This document shows, piece by piece, positions 42,214 through 48,470 of a stretch of 64,000 nt of DNA. This DNA comes from a bacterium (GTDB taxonomy: Bacteria > SZUA-79 > Acidulodesulfobacterales > Acidulodesulfobacteraceae), in NCBI GenBank assembly GCA_021795355.1, contig JAJYPL010000001.1:1-64000 (forward strand), in the 5' to 3' direction. Under the pieces are notes generated by a model, which had not been told where the DNA came from, ran no database searches, and saw nothing but the letters and a program-made list of their open reading frames with translations. The stretch's first letter is position 1, and each line of letters starts with the position of its first letter. Made by a program: the position numbers and the translations under genes.

Positions 42214-42975
42214 ATGCCGGTAAAATTTAATTGCGCAAACAGCTGCATTGCAGAGATAGATTTGGATTTAGGCGGTAAAAATTCTTTTAATATTACCGAA
42301 ATAAACGAACTTATAAAAATATTCGAATCTAATTTAGAAAAAGAAATCGATTTAAAAGCTATCGTAATTAAAAGTACAAATCCGGATTATTTCGCTACAG
42401 GACCTGAAATTAAAGAAATAGCCGGATTGGACAGGGAAGGCGCAAGATATTACGTGACTCTTCTTAACGTATTAACTAAACATATTTCCGAATCGTCCGT
42501 GCCCGTAGTATGTATTATAAACGGCGCCGTCAGCGGTATCGGACTCGATATAGCTTCTTCGTGCGATTTCAGGCTTGCCGGTGAAAAAGCTTCTTTTGCG
42601 GATTTGTCTTCTAAATACGGAATATTATATCCTTCGCATATTATTTTAAGGCTGTCTTTTTTAATAGGAGTGCAGAAAACAAAAGAAATTTTGTTAAGTT
42701 CTAAAATATATACGGCCGAAGATATGCTCGGAATTAATTTTTTAACCGAGTATTTTAGCGGCGAAAATTTTGAAAAAGGCGTTAACGGATTTATAGAAAA
42801 TTTTAAGAATCTTTCCATAGATTCTTTGAGGCTTAAGAAAAAATTATTTATAGATTTATGGAAAAATTATCTTAAAAACAATCAGCTTCCAGCAGAAGAA
42901 ATTTTTTCGGAAATTTTAAAAGAAGGTAAAGACTGGAAAAAATCGATAAAAGATTTTTACGGCGATTCTCTATAA
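42214..42975 (+). CDS. Enoyl-CoA hydratase/isomerase family protein
   Basis: 'FATGPEIKEIAGLDREGARYYVTLLN', 'CIINGAVSGIGLDIASSCDFRLAGEKASFADLSSKYGILYP'. Confidence 0.85.
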   Translation: MPVKFNCANSCIAEIDLDLGGKNSFNITEINELIKIFESNLEKEIDLKAIVIKSTNPDYFATGPEIKEIAGLDREGARYYVTLLNVLTKHISESSVPVVCIINGAVSGIGLDIASSCDFRLAGEKASFADLSSKYGILYPSHIILRLSFLIGVQKTKEILLSSKIYTAEDMLGINFLTEYFSGENFEKGVNGFIENFKNLSIDSLRLKKKLFIDLWKNYLKNNQLPAEEIFSEILKEGKDWKKSIKDFYGDSL

Positions 42976-43109
42976 CTACAGTGCCGGAATTTAATTCCCC
43001 ATTTCTCTCCATTTTGAATTTTTTGCGATATACTTGAGAATAAGAAAAAATTATAGTATTATATAATTAATTCAATTCAATTTAATCTAAAATTAAGGAG
43101 GAATTTATT

Positions 43110-43550
43110 ATGTCGTCCAAGATTAGCGGATGCGATATTCCGGAGGATTTATACTACAGTGTAGAAAAACACGTGTGGGGAAAATTAGGCGACGACGGAA
43201 TAGTTACCGTCGGAATGACGAGCGTAGCTCAAAGCTTAGCCGGTAAACTTTTATACCTTACTCCTAAAAAAGTCGGCCAAAAGATAGCCCAGCTTAAATC
43301 CGTAGCAACGGTGGAAAGCGGAAAATACGTCGGTCCGGTTCCTGCTCCGTTTTCCGGAGAAATAACGGCAATAAACGAAGATGCCGTTAAAAACGTATCC
43401 TTAATAAATTCCGACCCTTACGGCAAAGGATGGGTATGCAGGATTAAAGCCGATAACATAGAAGCAGATAAAAAAAATCTGCTTACGGGAAAAGAGGCGG
43501 TAGAAGCCTACAAGAAAAAGATTGAAGCCGACGGCATTAAGTGCGAATAA
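43110..43550 (+). CDS. lbpA: GcvH-like lipoate-binding protein, LbpA-type (copy 1)
   Basis: 'CDIPEDLYYSVEKHVWGKLGDDGIVTVGMTSVAQSLAGKLLYLTPKKVGQ' and lipoyl-lysine motif 'VESGKYVGP'; SD 'aaggagg'. Confidence 0.88.
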   Translation: MSSKISGCDIPEDLYYSVEKHVWGKLGDDGIVTVGMTSVAQSLAGKLLYLTPKKVGQKIAQLKSVATVESGKYVGPVPAPFSGEITAINEDAVKNVSLINSDPYGKGWVCRIKADNIEADKKNLLTGKEAVEAYKKKIEADGIKCE

Positions 43551-43596
43551 AATAAATAAAACTGCAAAATATAATTTGTAAAATTTGGAGATATAA

Positions 43597-44043
43597 ATGC
43601 CTATTTTTAATGAATGCAATCTGCCGGAAGACCTCTATTACGATATTGAAAATCAGGTTTGGGGCAGAAAAAACGGCGACGGAACTTTTACTTTCGGCAT
43701 GACGGATCCGGCGCAGTCTTTAGCCGGCAAGATTCTTTACGCAGACGTTAAAGCCGTCGGCAAAATTATAAAAAAAGGGAAAAGCGCCGCTACAATCGAA
43801 AGCGGAAAATACGTCGGTCCTTTTCCGATGCCTTTTGCCGGCGAAATAGTAGAGGTGAATAAGGAGCTTGAAAACGATTCTCACATTATAAACGCAGATC
43901 CGTACGGAAAAGGCTGGATTGTAAAATTAAAGCCTCTTCCCGAGTCGGTTTCGGACGTAAATTCCCTTCCTTTCGGCGAAGAAGCCGTCAAAGCCTACGT
44001 AAAAAAGCTCGAAAAGGAAGACATAATCTGCAAAAAGAGATAA
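43597..44043 (+). CDS. lbpA: GcvH-like lipoate-binding protein, LbpA-type (copy 2)
   Basis: Paralogue of 43110-43550: 'CNLPEDLYYDIENQVWGRKNGDGTFTFGMTDPAQSLAGKILYADVKAVGK', 'IESGKYVGP'. Confidence 0.88.
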   Translation: MPIFNECNLPEDLYYDIENQVWGRKNGDGTFTFGMTDPAQSLAGKILYADVKAVGKIIKKGKSAATIESGKYVGPFPMPFAGEIVEVNKELENDSHIINADPYGKGWIVKLKPLPESVSDVNSLPFGEEAVKAYVKKLEKEDIICKKR

Positions 44044-44045
44044 AT

Positions 44046-45056
44046 ATGAGTTTTTATGAATATAACGAAATTATCGACGAAGAATATGCAGAAGGTTTCG
44101 AAATCAGAAAAGATTATTTCGATTCTGAAATAAATTTTTACGCTCCAAGTATAAAATCTTACGAGACGGAAGATTTTAAAAACACTAAGTCCGACTCCTT
44201 CCCCCCTTTTTCCATTACGGGCGGTTCATGCTCTTTAAAATGCGAACACTGCAATGCGGAAATTTTAAAATCTATGGCTCCGGCTTTAACTCCGGACGAA
44301 CTGTTCGAAAGAGCCGATGCTATTAATAAATCCGGAGGGCTGGGTTTTCTTCTTAGCGGCGGTTCTAACAGCAAAGGAATAGTAGATATTCTGCCTTATA
44401 TAAAAGCTATCAAAAAGATAAAATCGGAATTAAACCTTAAGGTAATAGTACATTGCGGACTTATCACGGAAGAGATAGCCGACGGGCTTTTAGAAGCCGG
44501 AGTGGACTCCGCCATGCTCGATATTATCGGCGAAGAAGATACGATACGTAAAATTTATCATCTTAACGCAGAAGTTAAAGACTATGAAAATTCCTTAAAA
44601 TATTTATCCGACAGAAAAATTCCCTGCTCGCCGCACGTAGTAATAGGGCTGAAACACGGCGTAATAGCGGGAGAATTTAACGCAATAGATATTATATCCG
44701 ATTACGATATATCGTCGCTTGTATTGGTCGGTTTTATGCCTATGCACAATACGAAAATGGAAAACATAATTCCGCCGGCCGCAGAAGAGATAGGAGAGGT
44801 TTTTTTATATGCGCGGAAAAAATTTATTAAAACTCCGGTTCTTTTAGGCTGCGAAAGGCCGTACGGATTGAGCAAGTTTAAAATAGAAGAACTTGCCGTA
44901 AAAGCCGGTTTAAACGGAATAGCGTATCCGTCGGAAGGAATAATTCCTTTCAGCGTAAAATTAGGTTTAAAACCCAAATTTTCCGAGGTATGCTGTTCTT
45001 TAATTTTTTCCGAATCGGCTCTGCCGGTAATAGAAACAGGCAATTTAATCTGCTGA
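44046..45056 (+). CDS. Radical SAM protein, candidate LipS-type (LipS2-like) lipoyl sulfur-insertion enzyme
   Basis: CxxxCxxC in 'GGSCSLKCEHCNAEI'; TIM-barrel pattern 'GGLGFLLSGGSNSKGIVDILPYIKAIKKIKSELNLKVIVHCGLI'; follows lbpA by 3 bp. Confidence 0.72.
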   Translation: MSFYEYNEIIDEEYAEGFEIRKDYFDSEINFYAPSIKSYETEDFKNTKSDSFPPFSITGGSCSLKCEHCNAEILKSMAPALTPDELFERADAINKSGGLGFLLSGGSNSKGIVDILPYIKAIKKIKSELNLKVIVHCGLITEEIADGLLEAGVDSAMLDIIGEEDTIRKIYHLNAEVKDYENSLKYLSDRKIPCSPHVVIGLKHGVIAGEFNAIDIISDYDISSLVLVGFMPMHNTKMENIIPPAAEEIGEVFLYARKKFIKTPVLLGCERPYGLSKFKIEELAVKAGLNGIAYPSEGIIPFSVKLGLKPKFSEVCCSLIFSESALPVIETGNLIC

Positions 45057-45197
45057 AGCCTAATAGCCGCGCGTAAATATATCGCATTTATATGAACGAT
45101 TATTATATAATAATTTTAAATTAAGCACTTGCAAGGCGAGATTGGCGAGCTTCGCCGGACTCAGTCCGACGCGCTCGCAGCGACTAATTTATTGCGT

Positions 45198-46745
45198 ATG
45201 TTTAGAGTTATAGACACGGGCTTAAAAGATTTCTCTTATAATATATGTATGGATAAAGCCCTGATAAAATTAAGAAAAGAAGGGCTGATAGAGGACACTT
45301 TCCGTTTTTTAAGATTCGAACCCTGCGTTTTAACCGGCTACCATCAGTCCATATCCAGCGAAATAAGATTAGATTACTGCAAAGAAAAAAATATAGCCGT
45401 CGGCAGAAGAATTACCGGAGGCGGAGCTATATATTTCGACGAAGCCCAGCTTGGCTGGGAGCTTGTATTTTCGGCTAAAAGCATTAAAATTAAAAATTTG
45501 GACGATTTGACCGAAAATATATGCTCTGCTTTTGCAAAAGGAATAAAAAAGCTTGGGATAAATGCCGAATTCAGGCCCAGAAACGATATAGAAGTCGAAG
45601 GGCGCAAAATATCCGGAACAGGAGGAACTTACGAATCTTCGGTTTATTTTTTTCAGGGAACGCTGCTTTTGGATTTCAATCCGGAAAATATGGTAAAATC
45701 CTTAAAAATACCTATAGAAAAGCTGACCGTTAAGAATTTTGACTCTATTTTATCGAGGGTTACTTCGGTGAAAAGTATTTTAGGGTATATACCGGATTTA
45801 GATTCTATAAAATCTGCAGTTTTAGACGGTTTCAGGGAACATTTAAATTTAGATTTTTACGAATCGGAAATCTCGAAGGAAGAGGAAAATTTTTTAAATA
45901 AAAACCGTTCTTTTTATTCTTCGGAAGATTGGATTTATTCAAAAGATTTCGACCCGGCGGAAACAAAAATAATTTCCGAAATATATAAATGCGCAGGAGG
46001 AGTTTTTAAAACCTTCGCAAAGGTTGATGAAAAAAGAAATTTATTAAAATATATTTATTTTACCGGAGATTTTTTCGTTTCCCCAGTAAGGACGGTCAAC
46101 GACTTAGAAAGCAGCCTTAAAGACGTTCCGCTGGATGAAGCGGTATTTAAAATAGACGGTTATTTTGAAAAATTTAAGCCCGAATTTCGCAGCGTAAAGA
46201 AAGAAGATTTTTTTAATATAATTATTCAAATAATAAATAAAGTCAAGTTTCTTAAAAACGCAGACGTAAAAGAAGAAGATTTATCGAGATTTACATTCGT
46301 AAACGGAATGGATGCCGAAGATATTTCTTCGGCGGAATATATTTTGCTTCCTTACTGCGCTAAAAAACCGGACTGCGAATTTAGAAACAAAGATAAATGT
46401 ATCGCCTGCGGCGAATGCGAAACCGGTATAGCTTATAAATTTGCGGAAAAATACGGAATTATTCCAAAAACCGTCATAAGTTACGAAAATTTGGCAGAAA
46501 CTTTAAAAGAACTGAAAATAAAAGGGATTAAATCTTATATAGGCTTCTGCTGTAAAGAATTTTATATAAAAAGAAACGAAGCGTTTAAAAACAGCGGCAT
46601 AAAAGCTCTGTTAATCGATATTTCTTCTCCGTTATGCTACAAATATAAAAAAGAAACCGATGCCTACGAAGGCAGGTTTGACGGGGAAACTACTCTCGGC
46701 GCACGCGTTTTATTTAAAATTTTTAAAAATAATTCCTTATCATAA
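45198..46745 (+). CDS. Lipoate-protein ligase (LplA/LplB-type domains) fused to a C-terminal Cys-rich DUF116-like domain; sLpl(AB)-like
   Basis: 'RRITGGGAIYFDEAQLGWELVFSAK', 'RNDIEVEGRKISGTGG' are LplA catalytic motifs; C-term 'LPYCAKKPDCEFRNKDKCIACGECETG...IGFCCKEF'. The ORF-track start at 45129 lies within a repeat-like segment; ATG 45198 preferred. Confidence 0.82.
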   Translation: MFRVIDTGLKDFSYNICMDKALIKLRKEGLIEDTFRFLRFEPCVLTGYHQSISSEIRLDYCKEKNIAVGRRITGGGAIYFDEAQLGWELVFSAKSIKIKNLDDLTENICSAFAKGIKKLGINAEFRPRNDIEVEGRKISGTGGTYESSVYFFQGTLLLDFNPENMVKSLKIPIEKLTVKNFDSILSRVTSVKSILGYIPDLDSIKSAVLDGFREHLNLDFYESEISKEEENFLNKNRSFYSSEDWIYSKDFDPAETKIISEIYKCAGGVFKTFAKVDEKRNLLKYIYFTGDFFVSPVRTVNDLESSLKDVPLDEAVFKIDGYFEKFKPEFRSVKKEDFFNIIIQIINKVKFLKNADVKEEDLSRFTFVNGMDAEDISSAEYILLPYCAKKPDCEFRNKDKCIACGECETGIAYKFAEKYGIIPKTVISYENLAETLKELKIKGIKSYIGFCCKEFYIKRNEAFKNSGIKALLIDISSPLCYKYKKETDAYEGRFDGETTLGARVLFKIFKNNSLS

Positions 46746-46770
46746 AAATGAAAATGGAGGATGTAAAAAT

Positions 46771-47916
46771 ATGAACGAACTAACGGGATATGCGAATGCC
46801 GAGACTGCAAAAAAATTTGATTTCGTCTGCGGATGCAATGAAAATAATGAAATATTCAAAGAAATAGAGAGCAAAAAAAATGCAGATATTTCCGGAAGTT
46901 CTCCCGAATATTTAAAGGTGAGCCTGGCAGCTGCGATGACTATGGATTTCGTGCCGGGTATTTTTTACCGCAGCGCCTGTCTCCATTGTATAAACGTTCT
47001 TTTGACTTACGAAGAAGGGTGCAGGGCAAATTGCGCTTATTGCGGGCTTCAAAAATCCCGGGAAGGCGGTTATAACGATAAGAGTTTTATAAGGGTCGAT
47101 TGGCCGGCATATAGAACCGACGATATAATAGCATCTACTTTAAAAAAGAAAAAAATAGTGGACAGGATTTGTATTTCCATGATAACGCATGAAAAGGCTA
47201 AAGACGACACTTTTAATATTTTAAAAAGATTTTCCGGCGAACTGCACTGTCCGGTTTCCATACTTATGACTCCGACTATATTAAAACACGAAGATATAGA
47301 CAGATTCAAAGAATACGGAGCCGATATGGTTACCGTGGCGCTCGATGCCGCAACGCCTGAGCTGTTCGACGAATACAGAGGCAGAGGAGTGGGAGGTCCG
47401 CACAGATGGGAAAAATATAACGATACTCTGGAATATTCCGTTTCGGTTTTCGGCAAAAATAAAGTAGGATGCCATTTAGTCGTCGGACTTGGAGAAACGG
47501 AAAAAGAAATGGCAGAAAGAATGCAGTCGGTAAGAGATAAAGGAGCAAGATCTCATCTTTTTTCTTTTTATCAGGAAAAAGGATCTAAATTGGAAAACCA
47601 TCCTCAATGTCCTGCCGGCCAGTACAGAAGAATTCAGGTCGCAAGGCATATAATAGACTACGATATGGGAAGAGCGGAAGATATGAAATTTGACGAAAGC
47701 GGGAAAATAATAGATTTTGGAATACCTTTTAAAAACGTTGCCGAAATAGTAGAAAGAGGCGCCGCTTTCCAGACTACGGGCTGCCCCGGCAGAACCGAAA
47801 TTTCCGCCTGCAACAGGCCGTTCGGCGACTCGTCTCCAAAAAATATCAGGAGTTTTCCTTTTGAGCTTAACGCCGCCGACGTAAACAGAATGAGAAAGGA
47901 ACTGCTGGAATATTAA
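46771..47916 (+). CDS. Radical SAM protein, candidate LipS-type (LipS1-like) lipoyl sulfur-insertion enzyme
   Basis: 'CLHCINVLLTYEEGCRANCAYCGLQKS' (CxxxCxxC plus upstream CxxC), 'GCHLVVGLGETEKEM', C-term 'TGCPGRTEISACNRPFGDSSP'. ATG 46771 follows SD 'ggagg'. Confidence 0.75.
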   Translation: MNELTGYANAETAKKFDFVCGCNENNEIFKEIESKKNADISGSSPEYLKVSLAAAMTMDFVPGIFYRSACLHCINVLLTYEEGCRANCAYCGLQKSREGGYNDKSFIRVDWPAYRTDDIIASTLKKKKIVDRICISMITHEKAKDDTFNILKRFSGELHCPVSILMTPTILKHEDIDRFKEYGADMVTVALDAATPELFDEYRGRGVGGPHRWEKYNDTLEYSVSVFGKNKVGCHLVVGLGETEKEMAERMQSVRDKGARSHLFSFYQEKGSKLENHPQCPAGQYRRIQVARHIIDYDMGRAEDMKFDESGKIIDFGIPFKNVAEIVERGAAFQTTGCPGRTEISACNRPFGDSSPKNIRSFPFELNAADVNRMRKELLEY

Positions 47917-48005: not shown

Positions 48006-48470
48006 TTGGACGAAGCGGAATTAGTCAATGTCAAAGTTAAGCATTTACATAATTTGCAAAATCAGATTATTACGGAAAAACATACGATGATAACGGACGA
48101 GCCGGAGGCTTCGGGCGGCGACGAACTTGCGATTAATCCGATAGAGCTTGTGCTTGGAGGAGAAGGTTCGTGCACTATTTCCGTGCTCATGATGTTTGCA
48201 AAAAGAATGAAGTACGACCTGCAGGGCGTAGAAATAAATCTCACTCACAAAAGGGTCAGAGTCGAAGAACTAAAGGAATCCGGGATTGAAATAGACGACG
48301 AAAGGGGTTACGTCCATAAAATAGAGAAAAAAATAAAATTTATAGGAAATTTAGACGACGACCAGATAGAAGAGCTTCAAAGGGTTTCGCAGAGATGTCC
48401 AGTGCATAGCATGATAGAAAAACGGACATATTTTGAAATTTCATTCGATAATGCGGAAAACAATTTGTGA
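48006..48470 (+). CDS. OsmC family protein (peroxiredoxin-like/unknown substrate)
   Basis: 'GGDELAINPIELVLGGEGSCTISVLMMFAKRMKYDLQGVEINL', second Cys 'SQRCPVHSMIEKR'. Confidence 0.82.
   Translation: MDEAELVNVKVKHLHNLQNQIITEKHTMITDEPEASGGDELAINPIELVLGGEGSCTISVLMMFAKRMKYDLQGVEINLTHKRVRVEELKESGIEIDDERGYVHKIEKKIKFIGNLDDDQIEELQRVSQRCPVHSMIEKRTYFEISFDNAENNL

Follow-up and report, generated by a model that had tools for sequence, protein, structure and literature searches.

We have analyzed a window of 64,000 nucleotides, located in contig G000:C20 of an uncultivated Acidulodesulfobacterales metagenome-assembled genome (MAG; 1.31 Mb, 66% complete), and found five co-directional genes on the forward strand (43110–47916) that very probably make up a lipoate-assembly operon of the LipS1/LipS2 type with two dedicated acceptors, most likely serving a heterodisulfide-reductase-like (sHdr) complex encoded elsewhere in the genome. 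The genes, lbpA1, lbpA2, lipS1, a lipoate ligase gene and lipS2, all lie where the initial annotation of this DNA had placed an lbpA-lbpA-radical SAM-ligase-radical SAM array on one strand. We searched 294 genomes, 25 of them belonging to the same family, and the five-gene order is repeated in 22 genomes of the family, so that a chance arrangement can be dismissed. Since the MAG is only 66% complete, absences from it weigh little and its relatives have been used in their place. The same gene set has published genetics and biochemistry (PMC6067878, PMC10332631, PMC9585515). The operon is a variant of that LbpA-maturation system, in which the LipS1/LipS2 route itself has been described recently and the ligase fusion is new. 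The LbpA/LipS1/LipS2 route is now placed in an uncultivated acid-mine order for which sulfate reduction was considered likely on the basis of reductive-type dsrAB, with sulfide oxidation as a further possibility (PMC6776010). Among the transcripts reported there as most abundant, those named hdrB2, hdrC2 and gcvH may be sHdr and LbpA.

Acceptor proteins and lipoyl synthase subunits

The two GcvH-like proteins had been taken for lipoate-binding proteins (LbpA), and this proved right. LbpA1 (43110–43550, +, 146 amino acids) and LbpA2 (43597–44043, +, 148 amino acids) match GCV_H (PF01597) with 121.8 and 123.7 bits respectively, and the acceptor-lysine motif ESGKYVGP (Lys72 in LbpA1, Lys71 in LbpA2) is kept in both proteins in 22/22 genomes. 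Two conserved cysteines near the N- and C-terminus set LbpA apart from GcvH, and LbpAs of other organisms do not complement a gcvH mutant (PMC6067878). Here Cys7 and Cys145 of LbpA2 are found in all 22 genomes, as is Cys8 of LbpA1, while Cys145 of LbpA1 is found in 21 of the 22, the exception being G024, where the C-terminal stretch is masked by X. The cysteine pair is also present in a third, unlinked LbpA type (LbpA3, with matches in about 20 of the 25 family genomes) and is missing from every GcvH compared. In a tree of 41 proteins, LbpA1, LbpA2 and LbpA3 form one clade (support 99/98) together with two proteobacterial LbpAs (L060 and L061, references recognized by their context and cysteines without experimental proof); the gcvP-linked GcvH of the family, its second GcvH and others fall outside.

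These data largely refute already the idea that both belong to the glycine-cleavage system as H proteins, with an alternative ligase for their maturation and no link to sulfur oxidation, which we regard as very improbable. It is true that they match GCV_H and PRK01202 well and that the MAG yielded no further GcvH, but the incompleteness of the latter weakens this absence. Besides, the gcvHs of the relatives are separated from the LbpA clade and lack the LbpA cysteines, and sHdr genes directly precede lbpA1 in the relatives that have them at this site. As the initial annotation noted, there is no gcvT or gcvP nearby; of 15 relatives in the same genus, 14 have gcvP away from the locus with its own gcvH adjoining, and their second GcvH adjoins a separate LplA-B_cat protein (LipM/LplA-like) of about 270–300 amino acids. 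Both lipA and gcvP are present in the relatives, and lipA also in the MAG. Canonical lipoylation genes serving the LbpAs, the finding that would have told against the earlier claim, did not appear: in the relatives the canonical set (LipA, the LipM/LplA-like transferase with its own GcvH, and gcvP with its own gcvH) and the LipS1/LipS2 set coexist as separate, dedicated genes.

The radical SAM proteins, which had been assigned to LipS1 and LipS2, have these as by far their best models. LipS1 (44046–45056, +, 336 amino acids) scores 222 bits with NF053742 (cut-off 230; next-best model 27.5 bits) and LipS2 (46771–47916, +, 381 amino acids) 217 bits with NF053743 (cut-off 270; next-best model 55.6 bits). 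The radical-SAM motif of LipS1, CSLKCEHC at residues 62–69 (C62/66/69), and its auxiliary Cys269/316/317 are invariant in 22/22 genomes. The counterparts in the archaeon Thermococcus kodakarensis are C27/31/34 and C230/276/277, with nearly identical spacing, and there the auxiliary-cluster ligands of LipS1 were established by mutagenesis (PMC9585515). LipS2 likewise shares its radical-SAM motif with the archaeal enzyme, here CRANCAYC at residues 84–91, again invariant in 22/22; it has several more invariant cysteines, without one-to-one match to T. kodakarensis. No solved structures closely related to LipS1 or LipS2 were found.

In the T. kodakarensis system the C8 sulfur comes from LipS2 and the C6 sulfur from LipS1 (PMC9585515). 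We infer a similar chemistry here, partly from such experiments in other organisms. The ligase would load LbpA1 and LbpA2 with octanoate (or lipoate) at their ESGK lysine, LipS2 would next insert the first sulfur at C8 and LipS1 the second at C6, giving lipoyl-LbpA. The lipoyl-LbpAs would most likely work with the unlinked sHdr described below, and together they might oxidise protein-bound sulfane sulfur towards sulfite.

sHdr clusters beside and away from the operon

Searching with the sHdrB1 of a relative we found two kinds of sHdr cluster, a and b. An sHdr complex elsewhere in the genome had been predicted, and a complete sHdr-b with C1-B1-A-hyp-C2-B2 in order is indeed present on contig G000:C45 (L080, 4557–10088). 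There is no sHdr-type match in the window, as had also been said, and all matches of its genome are on other contigs. This cluster has the type I core set shdrC1B1AHC2B2 (PMC11582611), hyp being assigned by position and length with no profile match, and its A subunit matches the sHdrA of Hyphomicrobium denitrificans (6tjr) end to end with 278 bits. Actually, of the 25 family genomes 23 have sHdr-b, with a full B1 in 21 of them, and it is lacking in G010 and G024, which are among the smallest assemblies. No lbpA adjoins it. Just upstream of sHdr-b, in several relatives as in the MAG, we have found a fusion protein in which a formate/nitrite transporter is preceded by a ferritin-like domain (L080:2987–4432 on G000:C45, L088:7315–8769 and L093:7162–8586), possibly an anion or hydrosulfide channel.

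The second kind, sHdr-a (sHdrR-C1-B1-A-C2-B2), is located in nine relatives between an enoyl-CoA hydratase-like gene (ECH; 42214–42975 in the window, +, PF00378 94 bits) and lbpA1. It differs from the type I system in that hyp is absent from all the clusters seen, so that the core set is incomplete and we name it sHdr-like only. The ECH gene is the left flank of the sHdr-a site and the left border of the locus, and its position does not change among the relatives, whether they have sHdr-a or not; it is no known member of the lipoate pathway. In the window, G002, G005, G006, G011, G012, G014 and G018 the ECH gene is followed directly by lbpA1, and in G017 and G020 sHdrR alone remains between them. 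The window shows no remnant of sHdr genes in its 134-bp gap. While the initial annotation was right on the genes of the locus, it missed this conserved site, the repeated loss that we propose for it and the third LbpA.

The presence or absence of sHdr-a must have changed at least five times on a 22-genome tree, four of these changes being forced by supported branches, and one corresponds to the clade of the window (five genomes). Parsimony and the sHdrR footprints suggest repeated loss, once in the clade of the window and twice leaving sHdrR alone. Several gains by transfer into one site would be the alternative, and agree with the 95–100% identity of sHdrB1a across genera, compared to 75–93% for LipS1. 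However, we find this quite unlikely. The cluster is always at the single ECH/lbpA1 site, the solitary sHdrR kept there in two genomes looks like the footprint of a deletion, and the divergence of the subunits is gene-specific (in genus g2, 66–68% for sHdrR and 89–90% for A), consistent with vertical descent.

The five-gene operon is retained in all genomes without sHdr-a, and it is under strong purifying selection after the presumed loss. In the clade lacking sHdr-a, the ratios of nonsynonymous to synonymous substitution (dN/dS) were 0.013–0.061 for LbpA, 0.046–0.066 for LipS1, 0.066–0.091 for the ligase and 0.087–0.108 for LipS2, values in line with the 0.03–0.19 range of the genes around the operon. 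A sigma-70-like promoter box TTGAGA-N17-TATTAT (43034–43062, +, matching the consensus at 10/12 positions) is located upstream of lbpA1, and of 21 regions upstream of this gene 18 have a similar box, irrespective of sHdr-a, as judged by sequence match only. The operon would persist as its own transcription unit once the neighbouring sHdr-a was deleted in the clade. Such repeated deletions, each time sparing the lipoate operon, amount to a natural experiment that bears on the choice of sHdr partner by the LbpAs.

An autonomous operon that serves sHdr-b is the simplest account, on the basis of co-occurrence. Several points weigh against it. The link between operon and unlinked sHdr consists of that co-occurrence, and no promoter motif common to lbpA1 and sHdr-b was seen. 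The LipS1 and LipS2 profile scores are below the curated NCBIfam cut-offs. There is no LipT gene in the locus, and the unlinked LipT-like homologue (geranylgeranyl-reductase family) of the relatives was not found in the MAG. The direction of sulfur metabolism is not readable from these genes, and oxidation is not certain because the order carries reductive-type dsrAB (PMC6776010). Finally, LbpA3 is another candidate partner of sHdr-b. If so, LbpA1 and LbpA2 would after the loss of sHdr-a use some other partner, such as the Dsr system or another Hdr-like complex. The absence of an lbpA beside sHdr-b fits this version, as do the wide distribution of the unlinked LbpA3 and its neighbours, thioredoxin-like and hemerythrin genes and once a nearby DsrE-like gene. 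We think it unlikely, since LbpA1 and LbpA2 are the acceptors that share an operon with the assembly genes, and nearly every genome that has them also has sHdr-b.

LbpA3 itself was not found in the MAG. In the three loci inspected (L087:8914–9363 in G014, L089:8074–8523 in G003 and L094:8245–8694 in G022) it is a protein of 149 amino acids with cysteines near both ends and a C-terminal CMRC, with no lip or shdr genes linked. A Thioredoxin_3-like CxxC protein of about 90 amino acids flanks it in all three, with a hemerythrin-like gene on the opposite side, and in L087 a DsrE-like gene follows. Regarding sHdr-a, the region upstream of sHdrR in the relative G009 (L038:2558–2648) contains a TTGACA box and, after it, the inverted repeat TAGAATATTCTA, which may be the operator of sHdrR as an ArsR-type repressor.

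A lipoate ligase fused to DUF116

The ligase (45198–46745, +, 515 amino acids) had been recognized correctly as a lipoate ligase, with its DUF116 domain overlooked. LplA catalytic and LplB parts are found in one chain, at residues about 1–340 (LplA-B_cat, PF21948, 152 bits; LplB, NF053749, 30 bits; TIGR00545 over residues 27–365), and an AlphaFold2 (AF2) model of the whole protein (pLDDT 76) resembles LplA structures, with a TMt of 0.81 to the archaeal LplA 3r07_A. The main distinguishing feature of sLpl(AB) is its context with LipS1/S2 and LbpA (PMC10332631), and the ligase indeed shares its gene cluster with them. The C-terminal stretch (46206–46745, +) carries DUF116 (PF01976, match at 46329–46643), with 29.3 bits, or 32.2 in a second search, against a gathering cut-off of 25. 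Cys387/393/401/404/407/452/480 are all seven cysteines of the DUF116 family, including the C-x5-C ... CxxCxxC pattern, and are common to the stand-alone DUF116 proteins. Together with an extra Cys451 they are invariant across 15 aligned sequences. Unlike the ligase, the stand-alone proteins carry a hydrophobic stretch at the N-terminus and lack the ligase part, and outside the family they are not linked to LipS2. When the domain was modelled by AF2 (pLDDT 75), its fold found no counterpart in the PDB at E<=0.001.

The locus resembles the sLpl(AB)-LipS1/S2 assembly of the sHdr sulfur oxidisers H. denitrificans and Thioalkalivibrio (PMC10332631) in that LbpA, an Lpl(AB)-type ligase, LipS1 and LipS2 are co-encoded. 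In contrast to that system, here the ligase ends in DUF116, lipT is missing from the locus, two lbpAs head the operon and no shdr genes adjoin it in the clade of the window. Maturation genes were described as strictly inside the sHdr operon in Group I (PMC6067878), while here they are separated from it. In archaea, most ligases that act with LipS1/LipS2 are bipartite LplA-LplB (PMC10332631) and none is reported to contain DUF116, whereas here the parts are fused. We have found no publication that mentions both DUF116 and lipoate, and as far as we found the fusion is undescribed.

Full-length relatives of the ligase (61–96% identity) come from MAGs only, one of them Candidatus Acididesulfobacter diazotrophicus, which identifies the family as that of the order Acidulodesulfobacterales (PMC6776010). 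Among the 294 genomes there is one further ligase-DUF116 fusion, in G059, from another phylum of which it was the single genome searched. There (L150:211–3089) the fusion, with 36% identity over its full length, stands between a TusA gene and a LipT-like gene. A DUF116 fusion in G291 was rejected, the protein not being a ligase. Outside the Acidulodesulfobacterales family, we have also discarded the idea that DUF116 generally accompanies LipS1/S2, because of the 11 other genomes with LipS2 only 4 have a DUF116 protein, in no case on the contig of LipS2, over a background of 90 of the 294 genomes.

We infer that DUF116 may act in cluster or electron supply to LipS1/LipS2. Specifically, and as a tentative possibility that we rate well below even, the domain could be a built-in donor of iron-sulfur (or persulfide, or electrons), recharging the auxiliary clusters of LipS1/LipS2 consumed in each turnover, on the acceptor just octanoylated by the ligase. 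If true, lipoate assembly would gain a component not described before and DUF116, to the extent of our search, its first function. In any case the fusion offers a testable hint to the function of a widespread domain and to the resupply or reduction of LipS1/LipS2. A replacement of LipT by DUF116 is weakened by the LipT-like gene beside the G059 fusion and by the unlinked LipT-like genes of the family. The role of the latter is uncertain, since they are 30–36% identical and surrounded by genes of arginine and lysine. The MAG also encodes another DUF116 protein, of the stand-alone type, at G000:C10:17136–17594, with matches of about 170 bits in nearly all family genomes.

Gene starts and right-hand border

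The open reading frames of the ligase and lipS2 were listed as 45129–46745 and 46660–47916. Homology of the ligase with its relatives begins at the ATG at 45198, and a lipS2 start codon 3' of the ligase stop is located at 46771. These are probably the true starts, with which the apparent overlap between the two genes vanishes. In G022 the locus seemed to be missing, but its ligase and lipS2 sit at the start of a contig, indicating an assembly gap. On the right, the operon is followed by a gene for an OsmC-like protein (48006–48470, +, PF02566 45 bits), which is its usual neighbour in the relatives.

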